Source: a virus. From it: a stretch of 50,104 nucleotides of DNA. A program made the translations under genes and the position numbers. Shown here piece by piece: positions 10,345-47,361 of this stretch. Below the pieces are notes generated by a model that saw nothing but the letters and a program-made list of their open reading frames with translations, was not told the DNA's origin and did no database searches. Numbering within the stretch: the first letter of the stretch is position 1; each line of letters starts with the position of its first letter. Location: positions 1 to 50,104 of IMG/VR virus record IMGVR_UViG_3300042293_000657; one strand, given 5' to 3'.

Positions 10345-10353
10345 ATTATATCA
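10345..10353 (-). promoter_or_regulatory. extended -10 promoter TGATATAAT for the replication block
   Basis: An exact TGATATAAT 9-mer lies in the 23-base gap between the last structural gene and the zinc-ribbon gene, ending eight bases before the ATG at 10336. It is one of five exact copies in leftward intergenic gaps. No -35 box is visible, consistent with a TGn-extended -10 promoter. Confidence 0.55.
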
Positions 10354-10804: not shown

Positions 10805-10813
10805 ATTATATCA
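10805..10813 (-). promoter_or_regulatory. extended -10 promoter TGATATAAT overlapping a stop codon
   Basis: The TGA stop of the upstream tail gene is itself the TGA of TGATATAAT. The box ends 16 bases before the GTG at 10788, leaving a leader of about ten bases occupied by the GAGGAG ribosome site. Confidence 0.55.
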
Positions 10814-17736: not shown

Positions 17737-18317
17737 TAAACTTCCTCAAGACTAACAGATATATCCCACATGTCATAATTTGTTCCGCCACGTTTAATTA
17801 CGTCATGGTCAAATGAGGAAAAGAATACCTGTAAAACTTGATTATATTCTGCTAAATGACCATAGGTATTTTCAGTAAACTCATTGTATTTATCATATGC
17901 AAGAAGAATATAAAACGATCCTGTATGATTTTCATACCAATTTACAATGTCTACGCCTCCAGCTCCTAAGTCTGCTGTGAAATCTTCTACATTGTTGGTC
18001 AATACGCCAAGATCAGAAAATGTTGCAGATGCGGAAAATGCACGGGAAGGCAAAAGATTCCATGAAAAAGAAAGTCTCTGTTTATCTGCTATGTGATAAG
18101 ATCTCATAGTTCCATTAATCATTCTTTTTTTGTTCTCTATTCTTTCACAAGATATAGAAATCTCTGATCTATTGTGGTCAGAAAGAATTATAAAGTCTTC
18201 AAATTCTGTGCCAACTGGAACAAACTTTCCATTGCTTTTTTCATATGCATCAGCCCAGACAATTGCTTGGGGTCTTGAATAAGCAGATCTTCCAGCCATA
18301 TATAAACTATTAGCCAC
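17736..18317 (-). CDS. distal tail (Dit-like) or minor tail protein
   Basis: 193 residues from a GTG at 18317 that overlaps the tape-measure stop by eight bases; AAGGAG lies inside the tape measure end. The protein is beta-rich, with SEISISCERIENKKRMINGT, QRLSFSWNLLPS and a C-terminal WDISVSLEEV. That is the usual style of the first gene after the tape measure in siphoviruses, which joins the tail tube to the tip. A length near 200 fits the N-terminal domain of Dit proteins. The identity is inferred mainly from gene order. Confidence 0.58.
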   Translation of the reverse strand: MANSLYMAGRSAYSRPQAIVWADAYEKSNGKFVPVGTEFEDFIILSDHNRSEISISCERIENKKRMINGTMRSYHIADKQRLSFSWNLLPSRAFSASATFSDLGVLTNNVEDFTADLGAGGVDIVNWYENHTGSFYILLAYDKYNEFTENTYGHLAEYNQVLQVFFSSFDHDVIKRGGTNYDMWDISVSLEEV

Positions 18318-24300: not shown

Positions 24301-27300
24301 AAAGTATTTTTCTCCCTTCTTTATAGAAGTTTTATAAATTGTAGGAATATTTGATTCTTGTAAATCATCAATAATCTTTTGATGACCAGCAATAAATTCT
24401 TGATCTCTTTTAATTCTTTCTTCAAGTTTTTTCTTGTTGGCTTTCCAAATAACACCACCAGATGCTTGAATTTCTTCTGGAGTTAGTCTTAAACCTAATG
24501 CCCCATTTTCTTGATTAAATGGAGACCATGTTTTCAAAGGGTGTGGACCATCTGGCCCCAAAGATCTTAACCAATCTATATCTCTTTTCATTCCTTGACT
24601 TCTTTGAGCAATTTGGAATTTTGAGTTATTCATTTTGTCAAATAATCTAGAGCTTTCTATAAATCTTCCAACACCCTTACCTGTTGACCAGCTAGAGACT
24701 TCCTTTAAAGTTCCTCCGCTTATTGGGTCAACAGATCCTCTTGTTATGTCTATCTTTTTTCTAGATGTAGACAATCCTCTTTTTATGTTTGCTGGGATGT
24801 TTTGCAACATGTCATCTCTATTTGATTGACTAATAGATGTTGTCATTCTTGAGAACCATTCAACAATGTTTGCTGGGATGCGGCCTCTTGCACCTCTTGC
24901 TGCATTTGCTGCTGCAGCAATTCCTCCTCCTCCTAGCATTGAAATCATTCCACCCATATTAAGTTGGGACGATTCTGACATAACGTATCTTCCTGATGAT
25001 TTTCCAGTGCTCTTTAATCTTGATGTTCCTTGCATTCTTAAAGAGTCGTATAGTTTTTCAGGAAGATTTCTTTTTAAAATATCTGTAAAGATATTATCAA
25101 ATTCTCCTGGTTTAAGAGGTGTTTCGCCTATACTTCCAAATATATTTCGTGCATCATTGTATGATCTTTCTATTGCTGGAATAGATATTGTGTCTGGTAT
25201 ACCTAGTCTTCTTGCAGCTTCCAGCTGCAAAGAAAATGGATGAGCAGGAGTGTTTGCAAGATCGTTATAGATATCTTCTCCAGTTATCTTTCCAAAAGAA
25301 GGTCCACCTTTAAGACCTTGATTAACTCTTGGTGATTGCCAAATCATTAACCCTGGATGATAAGTTCTTTCATCATCAATTTTAATTCCCTTGGCAACGT
25401 GACCTCTTTGCAAAAATTCTGCAGACAACATGCTTTCGTCCAAAACATCTCTTCCAAGGCTAGAGCTTGAACCCATTATTCTTTTTCTATCATTTTTTTG
25501 CAATCCCCCTCCCGTACCCGTCAACCAACCTGGAAGCAAGCCCCGTGAACTTCCCGACAATCTTTGAAAGTTTTTCATTAACATTCCTATATTGGCATAC
25601 TGTACTCCAGGAATCATTCCACCCTTGTTTGCATGAGTGGCTTGACCAGATCCTCTTAGACCTGCATAATCAAGAACTCCTTCAGGTCTTCCTAGATTTC
25701 CAGCTTCTCTTCCTGCAAGGTTTCCAATATTTATCTGTCTACCATCCATGTCAACATAAAGATCTTTTTTATTTTTTCCTGATGAATATTGAATTCCTCT
25801 AGCATCTAGGGTTTGTTTTATTAGTGGCAAAGATGCATTTGCATTTACAGCATCTCCTTGAAGCACATCCCTTATAAAATCATTTCTTCTTGTTTTGGGA
25901 AATCCAGCAGAGTCTAAATATTTTCTTACAGCATTACGAGAGGCTTTTTCAAATCTTCCGTTAGTAATACCTGTCATTGGAAGTTTTAAGATTTCTTCTT
26001 TATAAATTCTGTCAAAAACATTTCTATCTAATTTTGCACCCAAATAACTGTCTAGCTGTTTTGCCAATGGGGAATAAACATCTGGTGTATTCAATTCTTT
26101 AAGAAGATTATCTCTTGTTAAATCCCCTCTCATCATAGCTAGGTTTGAGTCTTGAGACATTCTAAAAGTTAGGTTTCCACGAGTTTTTAATCCAAGCTGT
26201 TCTGGACTAAACCCAAGTCTTTCAACAGCAAATCTTAAAGTGTCTACCCTTACATTTTGTCCTTTTTGATATTTTCCAGTTAAAGTATTGTATAGGTCTT
26301 GTGAGCTTCTTGAGGATGCTGCGTTTGATGCTTGAGTTTTTCTAGTCCCCCCTCTACCGCCCATTGCAATTGGAATAGTTGCTGCCTCTTGTCTTTGAGT
26401 CTGTACTCTTGCCATAACTCTTTGCATTGCAGCGGTCATACCTGCCCCACCACCAGTATTCAACATAGAGACTGGCTTTCCACTATTAATGGCATGAAGC
26501 AAAGAGAAGTTTTCCTGTGTGGCCTTTTTGTTTACTACAAACTCTCCAGGTGTTAGAACTGCTGGGACGGTATCTCTATTTCCAACCCCTGGAATAGTGC
26601 CTCCACTGTTTCTTGCAACTATTGGAAGAGGTCTGCCTGCAAGATTTGACGATCCTCCTCTAGCCCTAGTCATTGCTGCGCCAGGAATTGCAAATGCTCC
26701 TCCTGCGACTGAAGCTTTTGAGGCGTCCATCATTCTTGCAGCAAGAATTTGATAAGAAGCTGCTAATTCATCAACTGCTGTACTTGCTACTCCAGCAGCT
26801 AAAGGCTGGTCTCTTAATGCCATATTTACAAACTCAGTGGATTGTCCCAATTGCATTGCAGCGTTTGCTGCGTCCATTTCTGCAAGACTCATGTATTTTA
26901 ATGTTTGACTTACTGCCTGAATTGAACCAGATATTCCACCTTTTGTAAATCCCTTAAAGGCTACTCCAATAACATTTCCAAATTTAATAAGAGTTCCTGT
27001 TAGGTTCATTAACAAACCTAAAAACATAGTTCCTGCTGGGATTAAAATACCAGTAATTACTGTTCCAAATCCAATAAACTTTTTAGCAAAGTCTGGTAAA
27101 GAATTAAATTTTTCTACTAGGCTTCCTAGAAATTCAAGAACAGGAATAGCTAGTTGAGTAAACATTTCTCCAATTGGAGCTATGGCAAGCTTTAGTCTTT
27201 CCATTGCTGCGACAAATTTTGTTGCAGAAGAATCTTCAATAGCACCAAGTTCTTTTGTAGCAGAAGCAGCAAGTTGTGCTGCTGACAATGCAGCAGTATC

Positions 27301-28671
27301 CATAACTCGTGAAGCTTGAGATCCATCCTTAATAATATTATTAAACAAAGCTCCAAGTCTTGCATACTGGTATTTTCCAAATACCTTTTCAAGTGCTTGT
27401 TGTTTTCCAAATTCATCTAGAGTAGCTAATGCTCTAGCAAAACCTTGAACAGTTCCCATAAGATCTCCGCGATTTGCGTCAACAATTGCATTGATATTTA
27501 TACCAAGTTCGCCTAGCTTTTCTACTGCTCTGTTTGTTGGGTTAATCAAAGAGGCAAGACCAGATTTTAATGCGTTTGCTCCTTGAGCAGCAGAAACACC
27601 GCCTTCCTGCATAGCAGCAAGCATTGCAGCCATGTCTTCTACAGATCCACCAAGACCTTTAATAACTGGAGCAACTCTTGGAATAGCCTGTGCAAGATCT
27701 TGCAGGGTAACAACTGTTTGGTTTTCTACCATGTTCAAAAAGTTAATTGTTTTTGTTAAATCTTTACTCTGTAGACCAAAGGCTGTTTGCAAAGCTATTG
27801 TTGTTTCAAGTGCTTCACTTTGTTCCATTTGACCAAGTGTTGCAAGTCTAGTTGCTTCTCTGGTTGCATCAATAAGATCTGCGCCCTGGGAACCAGCAGC
27901 GGCAGCTTGAGCAGCCAGACCAATAGTATCTTTTACTGCAATTCCATACTTTGTATATTCTTTTGCCAATTCCTTAACAGCTTCAAGGTTTGCTTCCATC
28001 TCTTCTGGTGGTGTAAAAGCATCTCCATAAACTTTTCTAAAGTTAATTGTTTCTTTTTCAATTTCTCTAAATACTTTTCCAGATGTGGCTGCAAAAATTG
28101 TAAGTGGTACTGTAAAGCCAACCATAAGCTGACGACCAGCCCACTGAGTATTCTTACCAAAATTAATCATTGATGTCGTTGATTGGGTAAGCATTGCTCT
28201 ATGAATTGCTAATTTTTGTGCTGAAACTGCTGCTTGAGAATTAAAGGCTTGAAGAGGTCTAATTGCAAGTGACTCTCTAAATCCATTTGCTGCTGAACCA
28301 GTGGCTATAAATTGAGTTTCTAATGCTGATGCACGGGCATTTGCCAATGATAGGACTGCTGCTGCTTCATTGCTACCCTTTTTAAATCTTGCGTTAAAGA
28401 ATTGACCTATTGTTCCTTGTCCCTTTTGAAGAGTCTTGTCTAGTCTAGAGGCAGCGGTTTGCATCCTTACTGTTTCTGCACTAAATAATCCTCCAGCATT
28501 AACCATCTCAGAAAGCTCTGATGCAAGATTTTTTGCTGCGCTAGCTTGAACTCTATTGTTAGTATTTAAAGCTGACTGAAATGAGTTTATCTGAGCCTGA
28601 AGCTGCCTAAGACTTTGAGCAGCGTCACTAGTATTGATGTTGACATCAATATTAACTCTAGTATTTGCCAC
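18310..28671 (-). CDS. giant tail tape measure protein
   Basis: 3453 residues from a GTG at 28671, two bases after the chaperone stop, with GAGG upstream. It sets tail length and is ejected with the DNA. Residues about 200-420 (EGGVSAAQGANALKSGLASL, LGELGININA) match the PhageMin_Tail tape-measure domain. Hydrophobic membrane-type segments lie near 530-565 and 1735-1825. Three copies of a 'PGxGxxDxVPAxLTPGEFVV' segment sit near residues 692, 1595 and 3348. Residues about 770-1570 hold unrecognised soluble-looking modules. A coiled coil spans about 2845-3105, and an alanine-rich tract with an exact internal duplication spans about 3175-3300. No lysozyme, NlpC/P60 or transglycosylase motif was recognised. 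At 1.5 angstrom per residue the tail would be near 520 nm. Confidence 0.95.
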   Translation of the reverse strand: MANTRVNIDVNINTSDAAQSLRQLQAQINSFQSALNTNNRVQASAAKNLASELSEMVNAGGLFSAETVRMQTAASRLDKTLQKGQGTIGQFFNARFKKGSNEAAAVLSLANARASALETQFIATGSAANGFRESLAIRPLQAFNSQAAVSAQKLAIHRAMLTQSTTSMINFGKNTQWAGRQLMVGFTVPLTIFAATSGKVFREIEKETINFRKVYGDAFTPPEEMEANLEAVKELAKEYTKYGIAVKDTIGLAAQAAAAGSQGADLIDATREATRLATLGQMEQSEALETTIALQTAFGLQSKDLTKTINFLNMVENQTVVTLQDLAQAIPRVAPVIKGLGGSVEDMAAMLAAMQEGGVSAAQGANALKSGLASLINPTNRAVEKLGELGININAIVDANRGDLMGTVQGFARALATLDEFGKQQALEKVFGKYQYARLGALFNNIIKDGSQASRVMDTAALSAAQLAASATKELGAIEDSSATKFVAAMERLKLAIAPIGEMFTQLAIPVLEFLGSLVEKFNSLPDFAKKFIGFGTVITGILIPAGTMFLGLLMNLTGTLIKFGNVIGVAFKGFTKGGISGSIQAVSQTLKYMSLAEMDAANAAMQLGQSTEFVNMALRDQPLAAGVASTAVDELAASYQILAARMMDASKASVAGGAFAIPGAAMTRARGGSSNLAGRPLPIVARNSGGTIPGVGNRDTVPAVLTPGEFVVNKKATQENFSLLHAINSGKPVSMLNTGGGAGMTAAMQRVMARVQTQRQEAATIPIAMGGRGGTRKTQASNAASSRSSQDLYNTLTGKYQKGQNVRVDTLRFAVERLGFSPEQLGLKTRGNLTFRMSQDSNLAMMRGDLTRDNLLKELNTPDVYSPLAKQLDSYLGAKLDRNVFDRIYKEEILKLPMTGITNGRFEKASRNAVRKYLDSAGFPKTRRNDFIRDVLQGDAVNANASLPLIKQTLDARGIQYSSGKNKKDLYVDMDGRQINIGNLAGREAGNLGRPEGVLDYAGLRGSGQATHANKGGMIPGVQYANIGMLMKNFQRLSGSSRGLLPGWLTGTGGGLQKNDRKRIMGSSSSLGRDVLDESMLSAEFLQRGHVAKGIKIDDERTYHPGLMIWQSPRVNQGLKGGPSFGKITGEDIYNDLANTPAHPFSLQLEAARRLGIPDTISIPAIERSYNDARNIFGSIGETPLKPGEFDNIFTDILKRNLPEKLYDSLRMQGTSRLKSTGKSSGRYVMSESSQLNMGGMISMLGGGGIAAAANAARGARGRIPANIVEWFSRMTTSISQSNRDDMLQNIPANIKRGLSTSRKKIDITRGSVDPISGGTLKEVSSWSTGKGVGRFIESSRLFDKMNNSKFQIAQRSQGMKRDIDWLRSLGPDGPHPLKTWSPFNQENGALGLRLTPEEIQASGGVIWKANKKKLEERIKRDQEFIAGHQKIIDDLQESNIPTIYKTSIKKGEKYFDVSGRIVPRDEQRINNPAASNEILDEKEVALLGARLTGRPKTRIVEREEAQARYDKAKEEIKKIRMAIVRGEVSRDKAKPDLDRLYDESENMAAFVNWGRGREVSYPNVVSKLNMGGILPQMRNIGGEIFDSTKTSRNIVPGVGNKDTVPAVLTPGEFVINKDATKKNLDLLRSVNNGTLMGYAEGGDIIGFGADGKPIKDPEKAKALAQKGSPIYEYQSDAVLGRNAMDDKTIGREIGRAIAIRRTTTTRQRGFSSRTLGFGKENKANSAIGRGLQSMGGMKGMGASMGIGMAGGALMMGAGSVGESNAGLGAAMNAGGMALSMGSMLPMLGPMLAPLAAIALPAAAVAAALAAVGAGLYIWRKSVDDAATKAAEFGANIGATANALNTMAQVLGTETPAQARQKAVMGISSEEEATIANEFSGVFESGAGQKFIEDLQNSTSAERFQKLSDYLKTAIASGMMDQKAATTFAKAVGLKLGDSVLSNQAVSSISGQKTGTSAIKEIADMRKAAVDADGSLAKLAVSSGEASLSNETAGRAIGAATQIIQDYGNVIGVAEQQYAEGTIGWNEYHTAITEARTAQEQYTNVIKKSVSNAAEQGAARQALDQQMVAAGYTEDQVGAITNSTNIGTSSLGFSESKDYLRPALSLLSGNLVGAALGMVDVITPSQSAYQKEFVKQQADVQFDKSFGELDSTQQTSLVEESKEAQDLAREVDLEGLNEAIKASVLAGDMTAEQAAQFGQEIMYNVDALKALRDGASIATAQFITFAQNIPGITKGQSSDVVTIGKEFEAAGGNTALIENYIASLPENLLKTGIETLKSAGIQTGDTGRNIISPEEQERRRTDIAFGLQSLSGSVGVEQAVAIQKSDAYGKAVREVDGSEKINKAFARAAEGGVVEKVIRYVIQTEGENTPAEMISSITKLTIAQEDIMSLPDEMIKGLKIDTTDPADLLKFGAAAKTLKDQWKIIENLNPNINMTAAMEFLTLDAEGKPLTPEQVSKNVIKLNKAMKDLESGNSEIRKKAMIDIAVAYSGKNIAGGTPQEAAANAIAGLREQFKNFDKLDPVVQEQMIEIRMGYEVKNLSLVMQLNSAMAALKTATDAESRQIILKRIASLQSQIGTEKALVEATVAPIPGSGSSSGSSGGGEKSIAQQLKEQAKLSGETFKGISNLQNEKGFKNFIAGPFAPEFLEYLRSQGAAGLKLIKGGLEKVKAAYADYQKTKISDAAAMAALTPQALVQESKKTALSSQYNKKLADKGLYEDDINAIRELISDEDLLYAQQLRRKLKDKGTSKEEKREINQKLQAFKEAREAAERDAPIINQAQKISGSITDMKTQTSLLVAELGFINEGKTPELAAALAAAGLKAGDATGKVELLTDAYNKLKAAEYARDPGRLEQEKRDNLMEIKDVQRQIEEIEIVKPLEDLVEAQQKIIDGQEKIVRGKQQEVDIIGRNIELKQRELEPLDDQIEKLQELSDKTSEAYDAQIEALDEIYNREENIAKLKQGQLDVAQALSRGDVAAAAQGALGMSQELARQSREEARSALESQKEKATQNIQNKILEIEKQKKKINKDIEDLQMRQRVIQDEIYIIQSTKILPAENKIYDLQIQINNEADRLATKYNNAAEALENLRVKLKDLQKDQDRLNKTIPGDNAGETEATPAEPAPDPYPIGQSGMLLNPAGPALTTGGGYLGGSGGGGSNSVNIPPVKTLTPSAPSAPTPTADQSQRLADAARLAAAARAAAEAAAKRVAGPSAADRAADAAAAVRDAAAARAAAEAAANAAKARAAAQAKANEAEAQRAKAAAAAAADRARAAAEAAAKRVAGPSAADRAADAAAAVRAAANAAKARAANRAFGGFISNYAIGGMVNYKGSTERAPGMMYGGSAKKYAYGSIVPGRGMTDKVPALLTPGEFVVRKRVAEQYGPLLELLNGQVFPTMKTNSFNSSNKTEKSGSMYNYNVNVTLNGSDMDANDVANAVMQKIKMTENKGIRSNNIRG
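18510..18628 (-). repeat. VPALLTPGEFVV motif, third tape-measure copy
   Basis: Codes PGRGMTDKVPALLTPGEFVV and the following helix. It is the most diverged of three copies of the same roughly 40-residue segment in the tape measure; the others are near 23755-23885 and 26490-26598. Confidence 0.8.
18783..18870 (-). repeat. 88-base exact direct repeat, copy A (alanine-rich tract)
   Basis: Identical, base for base, to 19002-19089. It codes an Ala/Arg-rich helix containing KRVAGPSAADRAADAAAA. The 219-base spacing is a multiple of three, so recombination between copies would delete or add 73 residues in frame. Confidence 0.92.
19002..19089 (-). repeat. 88-base exact direct repeat, copy B (alanine-rich tract)
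   Basis: Second identical copy of the repeat at 18783-18870. The sequence between and around the copies is also GCTGCT-type alanine codons, pointing to local slippage or duplication as the origin. Confidence 0.92.
23755..23885 (-). repeat. VPAVLTPGEFVI motif, second tape-measure copy
   Basis: Codes PGVGNKDTVPAVLTPGEFVI plus NKDATKKNLDLLRSVNNG, almost the same as the copy at 26490-26598. It closes the block of unrecognised soluble modules and precedes the hydrophobic tract. Confidence 0.85.
26490..26598 (-). repeat. VPAVLTPGEFVV motif, first tape-measure copy
   Basis: Codes PGVGNRDTVPAVLTPGEFVV plus NKKATQENFSLLHAINSG. This phrase recurs in many phage tape measures; here it marks the start of the module block at about residue 692. 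Confidence 0.85.
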
Positions 28672-28672
28672 T

Positions 28673-29340
28673 TTAAATTACCTCATAGTCAAGTCCTGCG
28701 CCAATTCCGAATCCAGTTCTTGAGGCATTTTTGCCACGAAGAGTAGTTATGTCCTTTGGATCGTTTGACGCGCCCTTGCTATTAGCCTTTGCTTTTATTT
28801 TTTCCCATGTGTCCATGGCATTGGATTTTGATTTATCAATATCTACACCTTGAATTGCTGCAAAGAATTTCTTGTTTTCATAATCTTCTTGATTCTTTGC
28901 TTCAAGGATTGCGACTAGTTCTGGCATTGATAAATTATCCTCCAATTCTTGGTAATCTTTCCAGTGTCCCAGAAGGAATACCCTTGATTCTAGTACGACG
29001 AGATCTAGCTCTAGCCAGCTAGAGCCGCCGCCAGTGCGTTTGGGTCATTCAACTTAATACCAGATGCTACTTCAATAATTTTGTACACCGTTGGTAGATC
29101 AATGACCTCTTCTAGCTTTTCTTTTGTTGCGTAATCCTCGTTGTACTGCTTCATTGCAATTACTGCACAATCAAGAAGCAGGTCCATTGACTTAATGTTG
29201 TCAGATGCAATATCTTCATCACCAATCTTCTGGAACTCCTTCATAAAGTCACGAAGAAGTGTAATCTTTAGTGGTCGCATCTTGATGTTTACTCCATCAA
29301 TTAGCTCTACTTCTACTGTTTCATATACGCTCGTTGCCAT
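28673..29340 (-). CDS. tail assembly chaperone G-T fusion made by -1 frameshifting
   Basis: Frameshift product of the chaperone gene: bases 29340-29038 are read in the first frame, then 29038-28673 in the -1 frame, 222 residues in all. The heptamer CCCAAAC at 29044-29038 is correctly phased (zero-frame CCA AAC, shifting to CCC AAA). After the slip the product reads RTGGGSSWLELDLVVLES, continues with VFLLGHWKDYQELEDN, and runs without a stop to 28675. In lambda-type phages the short G and long GT forms, in fixed ratio, coat the tape measure before tube assembly. The second frame has no convincing start of its own (a TTG at 28945 only), and the tape measure follows immediately. This supports the fusion as the real form. 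Confidence 0.85.
29011..29340 (-). CDS. tail assembly chaperone G (short form)
   Basis: 109 residues ending at TAG 29011-29013. It has a beta-rich start (VYETVEVELIDGVNIKMRP) and then helices, the usual small chaperone before the tape measure in siphoviruses. The ATG at 29340 follows AAAGGA by seven bases and lies 28 bases after a TGATATAAT promoter and a terminator, so the chaperone/tape-measure transcript is separated from the tail tube gene. Its 3' end carries the slippery site described for the fusion form. Confidence 0.82.
   Translation of the reverse strand: MATSVYETVEVELIDGVNIKMRPLKITLLRDFMKEFQKIGDEDIASDNIKSMDLLLDCAVIAMKQYNEDYATKEKLEEVIDLPTVYKIIEVASGIKLNDPNALAAALAG
29038..29044 (-). 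promoter_or_regulatory. programmed -1 ribosomal frameshift site CCCAAAC
   Basis: A canonical X XXY YYZ heptamer in correct phase near the 3' end of the G gene, 25 bases before its stop codon. Downstream, the minus-strand sequence from about 29024 to 29004 can form alternative short hairpins (CTCTAG with CTAGAG, or TCTAGCT with AGCTAGA), candidates for a stimulatory structure. Confidence 0.82.
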
Positions 29341-29367: not shown

Positions 29368-29376
29368 ATTATATCA
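29368..29376 (-). promoter_or_regulatory. extended -10 promoter TGATATAAT for the chaperone/tape-measure transcript
   Basis: An exact 9-mer placed nine bases past the U-tract of the tail-tube terminator and 28 bases before the chaperone ATG. The leader of about 20 bases includes the AAAGGA ribosome site. No -35 box is present at the usual distance. Confidence 0.58.
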
Positions 29377-29385
29377 TAGGCATGT

Positions 29386-29428
29386 AAAAACTTAGCCCGT
29401 CCAACCTTTTGGCTGAACGGGACTAAGT
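29386..29428 (-). terminator. intrinsic terminator after the tail tube gene
   Basis: In the minus-strand RNA, ACTTAGTCCCGT (29428-29417) pairs with ACGGGCTAAGT (29400-29390) with one bulged base. The loop has internal CCAA/TTGG pairing, and the stem is followed directly by five T residues. It lies 31 bases after the tail tube stop. Confidence 0.8.
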
Positions 29429-29458
29429 ATATATTATTTAGTTTTTATTAAATTGTTA

Positions 29459-30142
29459 TTACGGACCTAGTACGCGGTCTACGATCTTGCCGTATGAACC
29501 ATTTGATGCTGGTAGAAGACGGAAAGATACCTCGAACATTGTTGGCTCGTCACGTTTTGCTGAAGCCGTTACACTCTCAATTGAGAGGGCACGGTGAGCA
29601 ACATAAACACGCTCAACGCTGTCTGCACCTGTAGCTGCTGGATCGCCAGATCCTGGACCTACAGCTATAATTGCACGTTCTAGTGGAACCTCACCAAGAT
29701 TACCAGATTGAATAACCATTGATTTCTCATCTGGATCATTGTCATCATAGTCTGCATCAGAACCTGCTGTTGCTACTACTAGATTTTCTAGAGTACCTTC
29801 AGCAAATGCTGTTACTAGGTTGACCTGCATACCCTGCTTGTATAGACGAGCTACGTCAAGGAGCTGATCTACCTGAACCTCACCGAAGTCTGGCTGGAAC
29901 TGAATTTCTAGACCGTTCATAGTAAAGCCTACGTTTCTCCAGTTGGCAGAAGCTCCCGCTGCTGACAATGAATCTGCGTAACGTGTTCCATCAACGAATG
30001 CTGGAATATCAGATGCTCCTGCTCCATCAAATGCGTATACTGCTGGTGTTGAACCTTCAACATACTTAAGTGAAGATGATCTTGCTACGAAGATCTGAGC
30101 TGCACCTACGATAATATTTCTTGAATCACCTAAAGTTGCCAT
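29459..30142 (-). CDS. major tail tube protein
   Basis: 227 residues. Its position directly before the chaperones and the tape measure, and its content of alternating strands with a central NGLEIQFQPDFGEVQVDQLL, match siphovirus tail tube proteins. The protein is rich in Ala, Gly, Val and Asp and visibly richer in G/C-ending codons than its neighbours, as is the capsid gene, consistent with very high expression. The ATG at 30142 follows AGGGGTG by 11 bases. The gene has its own 103-base upstream gap and its own downstream terminator, so it can be made in large excess over the tape measure. The tail should need hundreds of copies. Confidence 0.83.
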   Translation of the reverse strand: MATLGDSRNIIVGAAQIFVARSSSLKYVEGSTPAVYAFDGAGASDIPAFVDGTRYADSLSAAGASANWRNVGFTMNGLEIQFQPDFGEVQVDQLLDVARLYKQGMQVNLVTAFAEGTLENLVVATAGSDADYDDNDPDEKSMVIQSGNLGEVPLERAIIAVGPGSGDPAATGADSVERVYVAHRALSIESVTASAKRDEPTMFEVSFRLLPASNGSYGKIVDRVLGP

Positions 30143-30232
30143 ATTTTTATTTCACCCCTTATTTCTTTTTTTTTATTTGTATTACATTTATTGCCTTTGT
30201 TGCTTGGCGTGGGGCGTTTCCTCATCTTTATT

Positions 30233-30238
30233 ATAGTG
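30233..30238 (-). promoter_or_regulatory. candidate -10 box upstream of tail tube gene
   Basis: TATAAT in the 103-base gap between the tail terminator gene and the tail tube gene. The leader would be about 80 bases, longer than usual in this window, and ends in AGGGGTG near the ATG. No good -35 box is seen, and a second TATAAT-like sequence lies about 25 bases upstream at the end of the preceding gene. Confidence 0.35.
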
Positions 30239-30245
30239 GCATAAT

Positions 30246-30764
30246 TTAGCCATTATTATAGATGTTTGTAGTGTGATAGTCATATTTTATAACGACATTG
30301 GTTGAAAATGTTTTTTGAAGCCCCAGGGTTTCTGTGCTATTGCCTACATAATTAACTTGAGAAGCATTTATGCAATGAAAGTTTATTTTGTTATTCTGTA
30401 TAGTTTGACCAGCAAATTGATTTACATCAAATGCCGTTCTATCTTCTCTATCTGCAACATTAATAATAAAATCTCTCCAATAAAAGATCTCTTCTAGACT
30501 TGCCCCTCTTATTGAATACATCATCTGGGCACACTTGACTGGATAAAAATACTTATTGTTTACTCTTCCTTTCATAAAAGAGTCATATATGATGTAAGGT
30601 TTAGGTCCCCATTTTGCATCCCCTGATTTATTATCTGAAACAGGAAAAATTGGAGTGACCCCTGAATATGTTGAAAAAGAAAATCCAGGAACATTAGCTG
30701 CCCCGTTAAGCTCAAATTGTTTCCATATATATTTATTTATTATTGGCTCTACTAGATTACTCAT
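30246..30764 (-). CDS. probable tail terminator/tail completion protein
   Basis: 172 residues, mixed alpha/beta (GPKPYIIYDSFMKG, SLEEIFYWRDFIIN). It occupies the slot just before the tail tube gene where siphoviruses encode the protein that caps the tube and joins it to the head. The ATG has GGAGAAG immediately upstream, within the end of the preceding gene (8-base overlap). Identification is mainly by gene order; the sequence family is not recognised directly. Confidence 0.52.
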   Translation of the reverse strand: MSNLVEPIINKYIWKQFELNGAANVPGFSFSTYSGVTPIFPVSDNKSGDAKWGPKPYIIYDSFMKGRVNNKYFYPVKCAQMMYSIRGASLEEIFYWRDFIINVADREDRTAFDVNQFAGQTIQNNKINFHCINASQVNYVGNSTETLGLQKTFSTNVVIKYDYHTTNIYNNG

Positions 30765-31446
30765 AGTCTTCTCCTGGGGAATTTATTATCCAACTTAGAG
30801 CTGATTGTCTGCCAATAGATGAGGCTCTTTTTGATTTTACTGCAGAGTTAAATCCTGACTCAAACTCTCTTGACTTTGTAAAATAATCATAAAATCTTAT
30901 AGACCTTAGATATACTTGATCAAAGTAATTGTTATAAAACTCTTCAAAGGCTCTAACAAAAGATCCTCTAACTTCTTCCCCTCCAGGATTTTCTATTACA
31001 ATTGGTCCAGTCCTAAAAAATTCTTCACCGTCAATTTGAAAGAATAATGCTTGAGCACTTACTTCATTTACCTGAACAGCTATGCCTTCTTCCATTATCT
31101 CTGCTTTGTCAAAGAAAGGCTCTGATCCATTTTCTGGAATGCTTGTTGATGACAAAAAATTTGATGAAACCTGGACTTTCTTTCCAGAAAGAACTTTTTT
31201 TAATTCTACTAGCCTTGCTCCAGGGTCTCCAACCTGCCCCCACTCATATACATGATGAAGCATTCCTGGGTTTGTTCTAGCAAGAACATCAAGGTATTGA
31301 TAAAAAGCAGAGATGCTTGTGCTAGCCAACTTGCTTGCTACATATGACTCTTTGGCTTTAGTTTCTTTTATGAATCCCTCTGAATAATCAACTACATTGT
31401 TTAATACCTTCATAGCTTCTTTAGAATTTATTTTTATAGTATACAA
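30757..31446 (-). CDS. head-tail joining (HK97 gp10-like) or neck protein
   Basis: 229 residues if the TTG at 31446 is used, which overlaps the upstream gene by 13 bases; the ATG at 31413 is an alternative. LHHVYEWGQVGDPGARLVEL followed by KKVLSGKKV is a phrase shared by phage head-tail/minor tail proteins of the HK97 gp10 type. The C-terminus is a long helix rich in Phe and Tyr ending in a basic SVGR-like turn. It sits between a stopper-like and a tail-terminator-like gene. The exact role (tail completion or neck) is not resolved. Confidence 0.5.
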   Translation of the reverse strand: MYTIKINSKEAMKVLNNVVDYSEGFIKETKAKESYVASKLASTSISAFYQYLDVLARTNPGMLHHVYEWGQVGDPGARLVELKKVLSGKKVQVSSNFLSSTSIPENGSEPFFDKAEIMEEGIAVQVNEVSAQALFFQIDGEEFFRTGPIVIENPGGEEVRGSFVRAFEEFYNNYFDQVYLRSIRFYDYFTKSREFESGFNSAVKSKRASSIGRQSALSWIINSPGEDYE

Positions 31447-31880
31447 GACTGATCATCTGCCCGTCTTAGAAAAATTCTATACCCAAAAAAATTATGGAAT
31501 GGATCAAACATGGGCTCTACATTTCCTATTTCAAAAACAGTTGGCTCATCTAAAATTTCAAACCAAACAACTTTTCCGCTTGGGTCTTTTATATTTGTTA
31601 TTAAAATTTCTGTTATGGAATAAGAAATATCGTCGCTTGATTTTAATATTTCATCTGCTGTTCTAAAGTCTAGTTTATAAGAATACTCAATAAACTTTTC
31701 TGAACTAATAGCATTTGCAATAGCAGAGTCTGGTCTTTCTTTTATGGCTGAGCAATTAATTACTCTATCAAAAGACCAAGTGTTTACCATTTCCCCAAAT
31801 GAACTTTGCTCAGCGGTAGAGTAATATATATCTGCTGTCATTGGATACATGAGATCTGACAAGTTTCCATTAGGCAACAT
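31434..31880 (-). CDS. probable head-tail stopper protein
   Basis: 148 residues starting TAATG at the end of the adaptor gene. It opens with a small beta-barrel pattern (MTADIYYSTAEQSSFGEM, later NCSAIKERP) like SPP1 gp16/HK97 stopper proteins, which plug the connector after packaging, and ends with FFGYRIFLRRADDQSCIL. Slot and size both match. Sequence similarity is suggested, not verified. Confidence 0.55.
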   Translation of the reverse strand: MLPNGNLSDLMYPMTADIYYSTAEQSSFGEMVNTWSFDRVINCSAIKERPDSAIANAISSEKFIEYSYKLDFRTADEILKSSDDISYSITEILITNIKDPSGKVVWFEILDEPTVFEIGNVEPMFDPFHNFFGYRIFLRRADDQSCIL

Positions 31881-32749
31881 TAGATTACCCCTGGTCGAAT
31901 TCTATTCTTATATCTTATTAGTAGTTTGTCTACAATCAAGTTTCCTGTACCCGCAGAAGATCCTGCTGCAAACTTAATCTTAAATTCTTTGTTATCAAAC
32001 TCAGTTATGTTTCTACTAAAGTACCTTGTATTTCCTTGAACTAAATCTTGCATCAGCATTTCACAAGCCTCTTCAATATCTGATGGAATAACTTGATATC
32101 CAAAGCTGGCATCAAGTAGGTAGTCAAATCCAGGAGAGAATGTTACTGCATAGTTTCTATCTCTCCACACCTTGGTGTATTCAACTTTATTCTGAATTTC
32201 ATCTTCAAGTACAATTGAGCTTTTGTCTATGCTTATCTTATATTGTTCATATGAGTCATCATCTTTTATATAAATAACTTCATTGTTCTCCCACATTTGA
32301 TAAAGAACAACAATTCTTTCATCAATGGGTAAATAGTCTATTCCCATTCCAATAACTTCTTTTAGTTTACGAACGAATTGAAAAGACCCTACCTCAGCCT
32401 CAATAATTCTTCTCGCTACTTTCTCTGCTTCTACAGCTTGACCAGTAGTAATTCCAAGTTTTGTTTTTACCGTTGTAAGATCGCAATAGGGCTTTACAAT
32501 ATCTATGCCTGCGGATAGAACAAGGTTGTTTGATGGGTCATATACGTTTGCAAAAAGATTTACAGAATAGACAAGGTATTTGGAGTTTAATGTAAACCTT
32601 GCAACCTTTGAAGCATTAGATGTTGCTGATGCAGAAAAAGATTCTCCTGTAAATAAGTCTTCATACTGCATAACATATTGTAAAGATGCAGATGGCATTA
32701 CGAGATCAATATAAATTGATGTTGTTTCTGGTAGTCTAAGAATTTCCAT
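31880..32749 (-). CDS. head-tail adaptor/connector with N-terminal Ig-like domain
   Basis: 289 residues. Residues about 1-95 are strands with paired aromatic residues, an Ig-like addition. The rest resembles head-tail adaptors (gp6/gp15 type): CDLTTVKTKLGITTGQAVEA opens a helical domain, and SDIEEACEMLMQDLVQGNTR is the standard long helix of that family. It is expected to form the ring under the portal. The ATG has GAGG eight bases upstream, overlapping the end of the previous gene. The N-terminal addition makes it longer than typical adaptors of 100-150 residues. Confidence 0.6.
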   Translation of the reverse strand: MEILRLPETTSIYIDLVMPSASLQYVMQYEDLFTGESFSASATSNASKVARFTLNSKYLVYSVNLFANVYDPSNNLVLSAGIDIVKPYCDLTTVKTKLGITTGQAVEAEKVARRIIEAEVGSFQFVRKLKEVIGMGIDYLPIDERIVVLYQMWENNEVIYIKDDDSYEQYKISIDKSSIVLEDEIQNKVEYTKVWRDRNYAVTFSPGFDYLLDASFGYQVIPSDIEEACEMLMQDLVQGNTRYFSRNITEFDNKEFKIKFAAGSSAGTGNLIVDKLLIRYKNRIRPGVI

Positions 32750-32751
32750 TT

Positions 32752-32994
32752 TTATACCTCAAAAGCTGAGGCAACTTCTTGCGGAGTTGCTTGCCTTACC
32801 TTATCTGAAATTTTTAACCACTCTTCAGCTTTATCAGAATCTACGATAGTGTAGCCATTATTTAGTCTTCCAAGAGATGGGTGGAAAATGGAATTAGGAG
32901 CAAAGAGCGCAACTTTAACTGGATCTGTTTGTGTTTTTTGTATTTTAGATTGTGTGTTTTTTACAGATACCTTTTTTGTGGGACTTGATTCCAT
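32752..32994 (-). CDS. small conserved head-region protein
   Basis: 80 residues from an ATG at 32994 with AGGAGG six bases upstream; an ATG at 33009 is rejected because the ribosome site follows it. A basic, lysine-rich N-terminus (1-28) is followed by GRLNNGYTIVDSDKAEEWL and QATPQEVASAFEV, a pattern I associate with small proteins between capsid and connector genes in actinobacteriophages. It has its own promoter after the capsid terminator. It may be a capsid decoration or head completion protein; function unknown. Confidence 0.6.
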   Translation of the reverse strand: MESSPTKKVSVKNTQSKIQKTQTDPVKVALFAPNSIFHPSLGRLNNGYTIVDSDKAEEWLKISDKVRQATPQEVASAFEV

Positions 32995-33011
32995 AATTCC
33001 TCCTATCATTT

Positions 33012-33020
33012 ATTATATCA
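33012..33020 (-). promoter_or_regulatory. extended -10 promoter TGATATAAT after the capsid gene
   Basis: An exact 9-mer 18 bases past the capsid terminator stem. It ends 18 bases before the ATG at 32994, leaving a short leader filled by the AGGAGG ribosome site. It restarts transcription for the connector genes. Confidence 0.58.
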
Positions 33021-33029
33021 TCTCAATAA

Positions 33030-33069
33030 ATGCTTAAGAGGGGAGCCAATCGACTCCCCTCCGCTGCAT
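33030..33069 (-). terminator. hairpin terminator after the major capsid gene
   Basis: A seven-base GC-rich stem, AGGGGAG (33039-33045) with CTCCCCT (33054-33060), and an eight-base loop 20 bases after the capsid stop, with further weak pairing of ATGC and GCAT on the flanks. The T-tract that follows is poor (CTTAAGCATTTATT), so termination may be partial, letting some transcripts continue into the connectors. Confidence 0.6.
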
Positions 33070-33079
33070 TTAGAAACAA

Positions 33080-34081
33080 TTATGACTTTTCGCCGTAAGC
33101 TACTGCGTCTGTTTCTTCGATCTGCACACCAAAACGAACGAACACTGTATATTCTACTGTGTCTTTCTTTGGCTTGAACTCGCGGTGGACTGTAACATCT
33201 CTCTGGAATCCCCAAATTCTGTTTTCTGGGAATGTTAGTGAGACATAATCATCTGGCATGTAAGGAACTTCCATGATGGGTAGTCCAAGAACGCGGTACT
33301 GTAGTGGAGCACCGACAATCTGTGGAACGCTACCGTCAACAATTCTTTCTACAATTCTTTCGGAATTGAAGTTGCCTGTTTGGGCAAGACTGTTAAGTAG
33401 GCTTGAGATTGTTGGTGAACCTGCATAGAACTTCATTGCAGATCTTGAACCACGGTACTTGCGTGGCATGGCTAGGACAATATCTTGTAGATCCTGTACG
33501 GTCCATGCTGAACCGCTGGAAGTGACAGATGCTGCCTGGTTTCCTGCGGCTTCTTTTGCATAGAAGCCCTGCATAATCTTCAAGAAGTTGTTTGTTCCTG
33601 AACCTGTACCGTTAATTGCAAGATCTTCAAGATCGTTTGCAAATGCGCGAGTCATAGAGCGAACTAGGTGATCTTCAAGCTGGGCACCCTCGATATTATC
33701 TTCGAGTGCTTCAGTTGCAACTTCCCAGTCTAGTCTAATCTTCTTTGTTACGATCTCTACTTTAGTGAATGCTACGTCTGCGTTTGTGTATGTACCATCA
33801 GCCTGATTTGCTGCACGGATTACACGCTCGCCTACATTTAGCTTCTCTAGTTCTGCAGTGTTAGAACGCATAGTTACTCTACGACCATCTAGAGCTAAAA
33901 CTTGCTGCTCCCAGATGTATTCGATGAACTGGCGGGACTGCTCAGGATTGAGAATACCACCATCATCAGTTGTGCTACCAACGACACCCAAATCACCTGC
34001 TGCGGGATTTGTAATTGCGCCAATACCACCAGAGACTACTACGCCTGCGTCTGCTGATTTTTCTAAAATTTCTTCTGACAT
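33080..34081 (-). CDS. major capsid protein (HK97 fold)
   Basis: 333 residues from an ATG at 34081, nine bases after AGGAGGTG, the strongest ribosome site in the window. The frame is open further upstream to 34147, but that would run through the ribosome site. Features of HK97-type capsids: an N-arm (EQSRQFIEYIWEQQVLALDG), an extended-loop region (KVEIVTKKIRLDWEVATEAL), the P-domain helix (LEDHLVRSMTRAFANDLED), and an A-domain end with IMEVPYMPDDYVSLTFPENR. The ordinary prohead protease encoded upstream should trim it. The gene is followed by a hairpin, and its codon use is richer in G/C-ending codons than nearby genes, both consistent with it being the most abundant product. No separate decoration gene is identified with certainty. 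Confidence 0.88.
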   Translation of the reverse strand: MSEEILEKSADAGVVVSGGIGAITNPAAGDLGVVGSTTDDGGILNPEQSRQFIEYIWEQQVLALDGRRVTMRSNTAELEKLNVGERVIRAANQADGTYTNADVAFTKVEIVTKKIRLDWEVATEALEDNIEGAQLEDHLVRSMTRAFANDLEDLAINGTGSGTNNFLKIMQGFYAKEAAGNQAASVTSSGSAWTVQDLQDIVLAMPRKYRGSRSAMKFYAGSPTISSLLNSLAQTGNFNSERIVERIVDGSVPQIVGAPLQYRVLGLPIMEVPYMPDDYVSLTFPENRIWGFQRDVTVHREFKPKKDTVEYTVFVRFGVQIEETDAVAYGEKS

Positions 34082-34104: not shown

Positions 34105-35472
34105 TTACCGATATAAGTCGGCGGAATTGAGGAAACGACCGCCCCACATCGATTTACTTATTTTTTCTCCCTGTACGATCCCGCCAAGATCGCCAGACTT
34201 GCGAACAGCCGTGTCTTCCTCTATCGCGGATACACGCTGTCCAAACTCTTCAACATTGCCTTTAACAACCTTTACCTCTTGTGAAACGTTATTAACTGAG
34301 CCAGTAAGTTCCCCTACCTTATCTGCAATGCTTTTTACTGCTGCTGCTAGATCTGCTACTGCAACAACTACTGAATCCTTGATTTCATCTACAGATTTCG
34401 CCAAGTCTTCATCGCTGTCTGCAGGAGTTGTGGATGTCTCTACAGCTTCTTCTACAGCTTCCTCGTCAGCAGACTTTTCAACAATCTCTTCGACTGCCTC
34501 TTCTACTGCTGCTTCTTCAATAACTTCTTCAATTGCCTCTTCAACTGCTTCTTCAATCTCTTCGACTTCTTCGGCGAGTTCTTCTGCAACTTCTTCAGCT
34601 ACTTCTTCAGACTTTGTTACTAAGTCTTCTGCTGGATCTGTACTCTTATTTCTATTTAGAATTCCCACATTAATCCCCTCCTTTTCATTGTTGTCAGCAA
34701 TTGACTTGGCTACTTCGTCAACCGCCATTGTTATATCAGATTGTTCATCTGAAACTTTTACAGTATAGCTCTTTATAAGATTTCCGATTGTTTCTGCTTT
34801 AGAAGTATCGCTGCTTTCTACAAAACCAATATTTGTCATGTGTCTATCGCAGCTTGGGCAAGAATATTGTGACTTCTCGCTAATAATAACCATTTCGCTT
34901 GAGTTGCACCAGTAAACATTCTCTAGGTAGTTTTTCTCAAGGATGTCTGCTCCGTTAAACTTTTGTACAGAAACAACGTTTGAGTCAGGGTTCGCTGGAT
35001 TATCAACAAGTGAAAGCTCAAAAAGATCATAATCTTTAATCATTCTAATTGGATTATCCATTCCTTTAGTATAAATATCTTCTGTATCATTAATTTTTCC
35101 GCCAATAGAAAATCCTGTAAGAATTCTTTCTGTTACCTTGTGCCAGGTATCTTGAGCACCTTTGGATACATATACATCAACAAAGATGCCATTATGAATT
35201 TCTCCGCTTTCTTTGTCAAAGTATTTATCTCTTTTAAAAGAAACTACTTTTCCTACTGCTAGGGGTGTGTGTTGCTCTCTTACATTACCCCTAAAACTGT
35301 CAAAAGCTTTTTCTGAGGCTTCAATAGAAACAATGTCTCCCTGCTTGTCAACAACATCTGTTGTCGCCCAACCAGAAACAATTCTTTTTTCTGCGTCTAT
35401 CTTTTGGATAGGCATAAGAATTGAAATGTTTTCGCCGCTTGTATTCCAAAAGGCTTTTTCTAATGAATTCAT
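34105..35472 (-). CDS. prohead protease fused to acidic scaffold
   Basis: 455 residues. The N-terminal 180 form an XkdF/U35-like serine protease: GWATTDVVDKQGD, His68 in EQHTPLAVG and Ser122 in GFSIGGKI, then DLFELSLVDNPANPDS. Cysteines at CPSC near 208 and a nearby Cys suggest a small metal site. Residues about 285-345 are almost only Glu, Val, Ala and Ile (EEVAEEVAEELAEEVEEIEE and so on), then a helical coil (DLAAAVKSIADKVGELTGSV), giving the internal scaffold that is cut away on maturation. The C-terminus ends in WGGRFLNSADLYR, suitable for binding the capsid protein. The gene overlaps nothing; the capsid start is 24 bases downstream. Its promoter area contains a TGATAAAAT and a TACAAT box. 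Confidence 0.78.
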   Translation of the reverse strand: MNSLEKAFWNTSGENISILMPIQKIDAEKRIVSGWATTDVVDKQGDIVSIEASEKAFDSFRGNVREQHTPLAVGKVVSFKRDKYFDKESGEIHNGIFVDVYVSKGAQDTWHKVTERILTGFSIGGKINDTEDIYTKGMDNPIRMIKDYDLFELSLVDNPANPDSNVVSVQKFNGADILEKNYLENVYWCNSSEMVIISEKSQYSCPSCDRHMTNIGFVESSDTSKAETIGNLIKSYTVKVSDEQSDITMAVDEVAKSIADNNEKEGINVGILNRNKSTDPAEDLVTKSEEVAEEVAEELAEEVEEIEEAVEEAIEEVIEEAAVEEAVEEIVEKSADEEAVEEAVETSTTPADSDEDLAKSVDEIKDSVVVAVADLAAAVKSIADKVGELTGSVNNVSQEVKVVKGNVEEFGQRVSAIEEDTAVRKSGDLGGIVQGEKISKSMWGGRFLNSADLYR

Positions 35473-35481
35473 CTTGTCACC

Positions 35482-35512
35482 ATTGTATCGTTATAATTTA
35501 GTAATTTTATCA
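35482..35512 (-). promoter_or_regulatory. candidate -10 boxes before the protease gene
   Basis: On the minus strand TGATAAAAT (35512-35504) resembles the repeated TGATATAAT motif with one change. A second box, TACAAT (35487-35482), ends nine bases before the ATG at 35472. Only a weak ribosome site (GGTGA) is present. One of these probably drives a head-gene transcript; which one cannot be told from sequence. Confidence 0.4.
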
Positions 35513-35523
35513 CATTTTATATA

Positions 35524-37071
35524 TTATTGCGTTGTACGACCTTCTCCACCAGCATTTCTTCCTGTTGGAGAATTTGGACCATCTGTTGCATTATTTTGTC
35601 TTTCTGTGTCGCGTGATCTTTGGGTAGTATTCTCTGCTCTTTGCTGAGCAGTTAATTGAAGTGGATCTTGTCCACCCTGTCTCATTGGCAATCCAAGCCT
35701 CATTCTAACTTCATTTGGAACAACAACCTGGGCCTTAAGATATCTTTCATCAATCTGACTCTGTGTATTTTCATCTGTAAGAGTAAGTTCGTTTAGTTTA
35801 AGATCAAACATATCTGTTTTTTCTTTTACAATTTTATTAAGAACCTTCTCCAACATTCTTTGGGCTGGCCTTGATACCTGTTCTTTAAATGTTCTATCAT
35901 TTGCTAGTGCCGCCGCAATAGACATTCCTTGTCCACCACCAACTTTTGAAATAGGAACCTGATGAGACATTAAGATATCATTTGTATTTGATACATGATA
36001 CTTTTGGAAAGATCCGTCCTGAATACCATTTTCAATTGGCTCCATTTTAAACTCAACTTTATTATCAGGTGAGTCTGCAGGAAGTGGTAGGAAAAGAGTT
36101 CTATGATTCTGTCCACGCAATCCAGACTGCATGAACCTAAATAGTTTTTCCTCTGACTCTGCACTAAGTCTTGCTCCCTTGAGGGTAACAATATAACGAG
36201 GAACTGCTTTATTCTCAAAGTAATCAATGTTATATCTGCTAGCTAATTGATCTCCAACAATAGCCATTGATGATGATAAAGCGTCTGGGATACCATAGTA
36301 GCTATTTCTAGGTGTGTACTTCTTAAAATGAATAAGCTCGTTTGGTCTTGGATCATTGGTAATATTGTTTGGAGTTTTTTTGTCTTGAAAGTTTTTAAAG
36401 AATACTGTTTTTTGATTAACTATTTGAACGTATCCATCTCTTAATCTACGAACACGGATTGTTGTCGCAGGAATATGTCCAAGGTAACCAATTTCTCCAG
36501 TTACAGTTCTACCAACTTCCATGTAACCATTCCCTGTTGCTTCATAGTCTGTCCAAACTTTTTCTAAAACATGGGTAAAGGTATCTTCATCATTGCGAGA
36601 TTCAAGCCAGTCCATTAAATCTTTTTTAGCACGCTCAATTTTTCTATGCGCTCTTCGCAACTGATCATCTGTGTCTGCATCTTCAAGTCTATCCATTACA
36701 GCTTCTGTAATGTCAAAGCCGTATCCAAGTCCTACAATATTTGCTACCTTGGCATTGATTGATGAGTGGTTTGCAAAAGAGCTATCAAAAAATGTAGCTA
36801 ACTCGTCAAGGTTATAGGGTGGAATAACAACATCAAAAAGTCCATACGCTGTTGTAATATCTTGTAAAGGAAGTAACTGCTTTGATTTTGTATCTTGTTC
36901 GCCTGTCCAAACTTTGGTCATTCTTGATACACGGCGTTTAAAGTTTGCATCTAAACCATCATACTTTTTTACTTGATCAACTTCTGCATTGAATTCGTCA
37001 TAAGACTCTTTCTTCGTAGAACTCTTATCTAGATTGTCAATCTTTGCACGGTACTCTATTTCATTATCCAT
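35524..37071 (-). CDS. portal protein
   Basis: 515 residues from an ATG at 37071, seven bases after AGAGGT; earlier in-frame ATGs at 37077 and 37116 place that site badly. Recognisable portal features: DLMDWLE ... EDTFTHVLEKVWTDYEATGN (wing/clip), MEVGRTVTGEIGYLGHIPAT and ELIHFKKYTPRNSYYGIPDA, the typical 'H...P....YG.P....A' phrase of the PBSX/SPP1-type portal family. Later come SHQVPISKVGGGQGMSIA and a C-terminal Gln/Asn/Gly-rich tail that is probably disordered. A dodecameric ring at the capsid vertex is expected for packaging and tail attachment. The start overlaps the preceding stop by eight bases. No terminase gene precedes it. Confidence 0.87.
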   Translation of the reverse strand: MDNEIEYRAKIDNLDKSSTKKESYDEFNAEVDQVKKYDGLDANFKRRVSRMTKVWTGEQDTKSKQLLPLQDITTAYGLFDVVIPPYNLDELATFFDSSFANHSSINAKVANIVGLGYGFDITEAVMDRLEDADTDDQLRRAHRKIERAKKDLMDWLESRNDEDTFTHVLEKVWTDYEATGNGYMEVGRTVTGEIGYLGHIPATTIRVRRLRDGYVQIVNQKTVFFKNFQDKKTPNNITNDPRPNELIHFKKYTPRNSYYGIPDALSSSMAIVGDQLASRYNIDYFENKAVPRYIVTLKGARLSAESEEKLFRFMQSGLRGQNHRTLFLPLPADSPDNKVEFKMEPIENGIQDGSFQKYHVSNTNDILMSHQVPISKVGGGQGMSIAAALANDRTFKEQVSRPAQRMLEKVLNKIVKEKTDMFDLKLNELTLTDENTQSQIDERYLKAQVVVPNEVRMRLGLPMRQGGQDPLQLTAQQRAENTTQRSRDTERQNNATDGPNSPTGRNAGGEGRTTQ

Positions 37072-37411
37072 TGCCATACCTCTTAATTCCCTTTGATGCA
37101 TCCATCCAAGCTCCAATATCGGTTTCAGAAGGGATTAGTCCATCCTTCATTCTATCGAGCTGTTCTGAATGCTCTTCATCTGTAAGTCTTCTTTGTCCTG
37201 CGCGAAAGACGGCTTCTCCTTCTGGAAAACCGTAGTACGCTGCTGCTTTTCTAATTTTAGACATTGCCTCAATATCCCCACGACGAGATGGAATATTCAT
37301 AGTGTTTCCTTCTCCATCTGTCACAATCTTTCCTTCAGGTGTTTGCCAGACGTAGATTCCGTCGTTGCCTTGTTTTTCTATGACAGTTATTTTGGGTTTT
37401 GGCATGTTCAT
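37064..37411 (-). CDS. small protein upstream of portal
   Basis: 115 residues from an ATG at 37411 (37420 and 37405 are alternatives). It contains GIYVWQTPEGKIVTDGEGNT, a WW-like strand pair, and later RKAAAYYGFPEGEAVFRAGQ plus RRLTDEEHSEQLDRMKDGLI, which looks helical and basic/acidic. I associate this type with genes near portal genes in actinobacteriophages. It overlaps the portal start by eight bases. A TACAAT box with a TGG extension ends seven bases before this ATG, so a leaderless transcript is possible. Function unknown; a packaging or head accessory role is inferred from position. Confidence 0.65.
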   Translation of the reverse strand: MNMPKPKITVIEKQGNDGIYVWQTPEGKIVTDGEGNTMNIPSRRGDIEAMSKIRKAAAYYGFPEGEAVFRAGQRRLTDEEHSEQLDRMKDGLIPSETDIGAWMDASKGIKRYGNG

Positions 37412-47352: not shown

Positions 47353-47361
47353 ATTATATCA
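47353..47361 (-). promoter_or_regulatory. extended -10 promoter TGATATAAT before the GT-A gene
   Basis: Fifth exact copy of the 9-mer, in the 61-base gap after the unknown helical gene. Its leader of about 28 bases is longer than at the other copies and contains a run of A before AAAGGA. Confidence 0.55.

Follow-up and report, generated by a model that had tools for sequence, protein, structure and literature searches.

The capsid and tail tube genes of an uncultured phage are each followed by a strong hairpin and an extended -10 promoter motif, and the tube message, at its predicted 5' end, is complementary to a site in the last part of the protease gene, the gene preceding that of the major capsid protein (MCP). 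Both features lie in a 50,104-bp virus record with about 38% G+C (IMG/VR record IMGVR_UViG_3300042293_000657, positions 1 to 50,104; hereafter the window). This one uncultured fragment and its relatives in the databases constitute the evidence base, which was analyzed by sequence comparison and predicted folds. At this level the hairpin-promoter cassettes, their conservation, and a complementarity accompanied by covariation and codon constraint are established. They are probably best explained by two transcription units with restart promoters, together with post-transcriptional pairing of the tube and protease-MCP messages.

Hairpin-promoter cassettes behind the MCP and tube genes

All structural genes of the window are encoded on the minus strand. 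Those relevant for the cassettes are, in the order of transcription:

34105-35472, minus strand: head maturation protease gene (PHROG 9427, E 1e-103), probably cotranscribed with MCP, as a promoter motif between the two was not found in relatives
33080-34081, minus strand: MCP gene (PHROG 1623, E 1e-71; the StarPlatinum MCP homologue is 38.5% identical)
33027-33072, minus strand: hairpin 3' of MCP from fold calculation, with a weak U-tract, kept in 85/86 relatives
33012-33020, minus strand: predicted promoter of the connector unit, an extended -10 (TGATATAAT)
32752-32994, minus strand: first gene of the connector unit, predicted to be restarted 3' of MCP (ATG at 32994 with AGGAGG)
29459-30142, minus strand: tail tube (major tail protein) gene (PHROG 2175, E 3e-30; Streptomyces phage relatives are annotated 'major tail protein')
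29390-29428, minus strand: hairpin 3' of tube with a U-tract, intrinsic terminator-like
29368-29376, minus strand: predicted promoter of the chaperone/tape-measure unit, an extended -10 (TGATATAAT)
29011-29340, minus strand: first gene of the unit predicted to be restarted 3' of tube, at the tail assembly chaperone position (PHROG 10504; synteny with the Kenrey and StarPlatinum chaperone genes)

The MCP start corresponds to the ATG at 34081, with a Shine-Dalgarno (SD) sequence AGGAGG at 34098-34093; a longer open reading frame (ORF) from 34147 would overlap the protease gene. The MCP hairpin combines an inner 11-bp stem (33062-33052/33047-33037) with an outer 7-bp stem (33072-33066/33033-33027, minus strand), and its folding energy is of -28.2 kcal/mol (z -6.45). 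The stem behind tube (29428-29411/29406-29390) is followed by UUUU and reaches -26.6 kcal/mol (z -6.39). From the stem end to TATAAT there are 19 nt in the MCP cassette and 16 nt in the tube cassette. A hairpin and TGATATAAT behind each of the two genes had been claimed in a sequence-only reading of the window, and the positions, the stems (z -6.4) and the conservation described below bear this out.

The motif TGATATAAT is present in six copies in the window, all of them on the coding (minus) strand; 1.04 copies are expected on both strands, and none of 100 shuffles reaches six. Generic scans stay at chance, both for sigma-70 promoters (59 vs. 60.2 expected) and for terminators (9 vs. 12.4). 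The terminator scan lists the tube stem and misses the MCP stem, which has no T-run. With scans of this kind at chance, proof of the cassettes must be comparative. The gene that follows MCP begins at 32994 (AGGAGG at 33004-32999) rather than at the first ATG, at 33009, so that the restart promoter would leave a short leader of about 11 nt. SD spacing fits a predicted transcript start 6-8 nt downstream of the extended -10.

Conservation was analyzed in distinct relatives. Downstream of MCP, a stem followed by TGNTATAAT is present in 85 of 86; downstream of tube, in 66 of 79, a count that rises to 72 of 79 when TGNTA[T/A/C]AAT is allowed. The stems of the cassettes vary in sequence among relatives, with a spacing of 2 to 40 nt. 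Over the loci of the relatives, which overlap, TGNTATAAT is found 339 times on the coding strand and 17 times on the opposite strand. In a wider set that includes the Streptomyces and Rhodococcus groups, a stem with z<-2 is located behind MCP in 116/118 sequences and behind tube in 121/121, and an extended -10-like site in 114 sequences at each of the two locations; random-window controls give z<-2 in 15% and an exact TGNTATAAT in 2.7%. The extended -10 precedes the post-tube gene in 72 of 77 relatives, while at other boundaries (at least 20 relatives each) the proportion is 0-14%. Among cultured phages, StarPlatinum has cassettes after both genes, Kenrey has a weaker site after tube, and in Rhodococcus phage Trina the cassettes are weaker. 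The outgroup Peregrin retains the stem behind MCP. As judged from these comparisons, the cassette itself is real and belongs to a known type of arrangement, and its conservation across a large phage group fits the predicted transcriptional insulation and restart. The best reading of the cassette is that the stem would end the transcript and the promoter would start the next one.

It is possible, although we consider it doubtful, that the hairpins are instead stems that protect or process mRNA 3' ends, the promoters merely adding transcripts to a read-through operon. The MCP stem, which is trailed by UUAAGCAUUUA in place of a U-tract and is omitted by the terminator scan, suits such a role, and this particular stem may correspond to a 3' end of the processed or protective kind and not to a classical terminator. 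The tube stem, in contrast, has its U-tract and is listed by the scan, and strong stems situated right before restart promoters in more than 100 relatives are the form expected of termination plus restart.

Three more coding-strand TGATATAAT sites stand just upstream of genes (10345-10353, 10805-10813 and 47353-47361), with no obvious strong hairpin preceding them; such promoters would hence extend beyond capsid and tube. One TGATATAAT lies within the tape measure gene (19952-19960).

Complementary elements in the protease 3' end and the tube leader

The elements that could connect the two messages are the following:

30230-30235, minus strand: TATAAT, predicted -10 of the tube gene's own promoter; relatives have a -10-like hexamer 0-9 nt ahead of the leader element
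30209-30224, minus strand: leader element of the tube gene, UGAGGAAACG-CCCCAC, where the mRNA is predicted to begin, just after the tube -10, complementary to the MCP-side element
34128-34147, minus strand: MCP-side element GUGGGG-CGGU-CGUUUCCUCA, located 47 nt before the MCP start in the final part of the protease gene, with frozen rare codons

The tube leader sequence UGAGGAAACG is the reverse complement of the protease 3'-end stretch CGUUUCCUCA, and the 9-mer GAGGAAACG is found at exactly two places in the window, 30215-30223 in the tube leader and, inverted, 34129-34137. Beyond a 4-nt bulge, a second short helix (CCCCAC/GUGGGG) extends the pairing.

Complementarity is held in Streptomyces, Rhodococcus and environmental relatives. 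The StarPlatinum partners (MCP side/tube), ACACUUCCUCA/UGAGGAAGUGU, differ from those of the window but still match each other, and partners of changed sequence likewise remain complementary in relatives L220 (GGCAUUUCCUCA/UGAGGAAAUGCC), L213 (GAUCAUUCCUC/GAGGAAUGAUC), L241 (CUUUCGUCGUU/AACGACGAAAG), L191 (CUUCUUCCAA/UUGGAAGAAG) and L314 (GUAUUUUUCUCA/UGAGAGAAAUAC), as well as in Trina (AAUCCUACC/GGUAGGAUU) and its relative L167 (GUAUCUUACC/GGUAAGAUAC). When 65 distinct pairs were aligned on the TCCT/AGGA core and selected for best pairing, a procedure that inflates the measures, 85.9% of the cells were paired, compared with 39-52% after sliding the partner. All seven variable pairs (7/7) had changed on both sides, and double-change cells numbered 68, against 24.8 ± 3.8 in shuffles, a value reached by 0 of 500 of them. 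The comparison of partner sequences across groups is independent of that anchor, and so is a run-length test in which a complementary run of at least 9 was found in 53% of 43 cluster representatives and in 6.6% of same-genome control windows. For 63 pairs, the mean duplex energy of own partners is -26.7 kcal/mol; shuffling the tube leaders gives -12.4 ± 3.6. Relatives with miscalled MCP starts are absent from the pairing table. A longest-match swap test had low power because the elements are common to close groups, and its same-sense control was inflated because the SD is shared.

Codon choice at the MCP-side site is also constrained. Phe is encoded by TTC in 69 of the 69 window-group relatives and Arg by CGT or CGC in 67 of them; TTC makes up 11% of the Phe codons in the window's genes, and CGT/CGC, 12% of those for Arg. 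Both conserved complementarity and compensatory changes, the marks of mRNA-mRNA pairing, are present, and promoter and stem positions fit partners carried on separate transcripts. In the outgroups Peregrin and KimJongPhill there is almost no gap before the gene annotated as tube, which makes a separate leader impossible there. The matched changes across many relatives suggest mutual pairing of the two messages, and we infer that this conserved pairing couples capsid and tube expression.

Coordinated change of both elements would also result if they were DNA sites of opposite orientation, both bound by a single phage regulatory protein of drifting specificity, and the tube element is indeed located at the start of a transcription unit. 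The MCP-side site, however, lies in a coding region, away from a promoter. The two elements are always oriented as RNA pairing requires, with G-U pairs tolerated (8 at one position), a third exact copy was not found in the window, and the second helix matches separately beyond a bulge of variable size. A protein-binding origin of the elements appears to us improbable. We assign a similarly low likelihood to pairing in cis, in which a protease-to-tube transcript would fold back over about 4 kb and join both leaders. Leaky stems would produce such read-through transcripts, but the tube element begins just after a -10-like hexamer, and is therefore most likely a message 5' end, and a stem-promoter cassette and the tube promoter sit between the two sites. 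It is very improbable that the MCP-side sequence is kept solely as the code for the protease C-terminus (WGGRFL, a peptide conserved in the window's group), with the tube-leader match as coincidence or relic, since rare codons are fixed, the variable third base of Gly falls in the unpaired bulge, the site in Rhodococcus phages overlaps or follows the stop codon of the protease gene and, despite its different sequence, is still complementary, and covariation contradicts it.

A second small hairpin, CGAUC-UUGGCGG-GAUCG, is situated in the protease 3' end upstream of the MCP-side element (about 34174-34194, minus strand). Both of its sides change in relatives (CGACC/GGUCG; GACG/CGUC in Streptomyces phages), and it also encodes a conserved SGDLGG peptide.

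Probable transcription units and possible consequences of the proposed pairing

A TATAAT motif is present upstream of the protease gene in 74 of 79 relatives. In the window itself, the corresponding region (35473-35602) holds only TGATAAAAT and TACAAT. In 74 relatives of the window's group, the stretch from 500 to 130 nt before MCP holds no TATAAT, and in this group MCP is most likely made from the protease-MCP message, without a promoter of its own. If MCP shares the protease transcript, a terminator behind MCP alone cannot raise capsid above protease or set the MCP level. The proposal of the sequence-only reading that hairpin and restart promoter insulate the two most abundant virion genes is thus supported for the downstream side of both genes, where the arrangement is conserved, and incomplete for the upstream side of MCP, as its unit is most likely not insulated from the protease.

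Under the explanation that we favor, the units would be protease-MCP-hairpin and tube-hairpin, with the capsid and tube genes at the unit ends, and hairpins that end the transcripts. The extended -10 promoter behind each hairpin would restart transcription for less abundant genes, that is, the connectors in one case and the chaperone and tape measure in the other. During infection, the 5' end of the tube mRNA would pair in trans with the site at the protease 3' end, some 45-75 nt before the start of MCP, through a helix of about 10 bp and a second one of 4-8 bp, and the purpose would be matching capsid to tube output. In predicted folds both pairing elements are more accessible than the remainder of the MCP leader.

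Among possible consequences, we rank first that pairing couples the expression of tube and capsid, in one direction or the other. Its best specific version, which we put forward tentatively from fold predictions, is that the protease-MCP message opens the tube leader and frees its SD. Blocking the tube element releases the tube SD from 6.1 to 0.8 kcal/mol in L081, which is closely related to the window and 100% identical, and the mean gain is of 1.29 kcal/mol vs. 0.28 for other windows, a weak trend obtained with the full duplex and controls; a block that was too short had no effect. Cleavage of the duplex, parting MCP from protease, comes a close second and is somewhat less likely; this version, too, agrees with the MCP-side site being located where the protease gene ends. 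Protection of the tube 5' end by pairing ranks third among the most likely single effects, a little below cleavage.

Several observations weigh against the proposed mechanism, besides the inflation of the anchored counts. The MCP-side stem lacks a proper U-tract, pure Watson-Crick runs are short in some representatives (L164, L058), and at least a third of the relatives show little or no release of the tube SD. That pairing frees the MCP SD, another candidate effect, was unsupported by fold predictions. Taking all this into account, we regard as evenly balanced the broader proposal that a two-mRNA stoichiometry device, without a dedicated small RNA, locks capsid and tube output across the Stanwilliamsviridae, Rhodococcus Trina-type phages and environmental relatives.

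Relation to known systems and other features of the window

In phage T7, the terminator Tphi lies directly behind gene 10 (capsid) and, with separate promoters, raises capsid output. The stem directly behind the capsid gene at 33027-33072 resembles that arrangement. T7, however, has its own RNA polymerase and its next promoter is not fused to the terminator, whereas the restart site described here resembles an extended -10 of the host type, and a second cassette follows the tube gene. With TGN directly before TATAAT and no recognizable -35, TGNTATAAT is like the extended -10 promoters of sigma-70/HrdB; it differs in that the hairpin or its tail occupies the -35 region, so that either the extended -10 or a phage factor has to provide recognition.

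Pairing between messages has precedents in bacteria. Leader-derived Rli51 in Listeria is an instance of trans-acting base pairing by a 5' leader (PMC11394854), and RNase III CLASH in Staphylococcus yielded mRNA-mRNA pairs (PMC9217828). There, too, part of one message pairs with a different message. Those are host regulators, while here the partners would be two messages of one phage, encoding its two most abundant virion proteins, and the complementarity is kept over a whole phage group. In the literature covered, which is partial and leaves many subscription papers outside, no paper was found on such pairing or on transcription in the Stanwilliamsviridae. To our knowledge the complementary leaders are undescribed so far; as a mechanism, they would be a variant of RNA-RNA regulation. 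The proportion of capsid to tail proteins in phages is usually attributed to promoter and ribosome-binding strength, and direct pairing of the two main virion protein messages, if true, would be a new layer of late-gene control. The proposed pairing shows as covariation in cultured Streptomyces phages and is open to direct testing. The stem-promoter cassettes, for their part, can serve as landmarks when capsid and tube genes of uncultured phages are annotated.

The remaining structural genes, assigned by profile matches and synteny, are:

35524-37116, minus strand: portal
30246-32994, minus strand: connectors
18310-28671, minus strand: tape measure

The window carries the syntenic portal-protease-MCP-connectors-tube-chaperone-tape measure block of the Stanwilliamsviridae, with homologous MCP and tube. 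The same gene order is found in Streptomyces phages of this family and in Rhodococcus phages Trina and Francesca. With StarPlatinum, Kenrey, Muntaha and Coruscant the window shares gene order, gaps behind MCP and tube, the hairpin-plus-promoter arrangement and complementary leaders. It differs from them in being a 38% G+C, uncultured IMG/VR fragment with an MCP about 38% identical. Genomes of the family are of about 125-135 kb; the window is a 50-kb fragment. The nearest of these Streptomyces and Rhodococcus phages are 38% identical in MCP and 44% in tube. No tRNAs were detected in the window, Rfam gave zero matches, and a search of genome contigs for the host yielded no relative.

An ORF at 37451-39400, upstream of portal in the order of transcription and beside the head genes, matches ribonucleotide reductase. 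Within the tape measure gene, about 70 bp of DNA (28101-28172, minus strand) are 87-95% identical to Streptomyces phages, the remainder of the 12-kb query having no such match. The conservation of this stretch mainly reflects the conserved peptide GKNTQWAGRQLMVGFTVP, with some codon bias.

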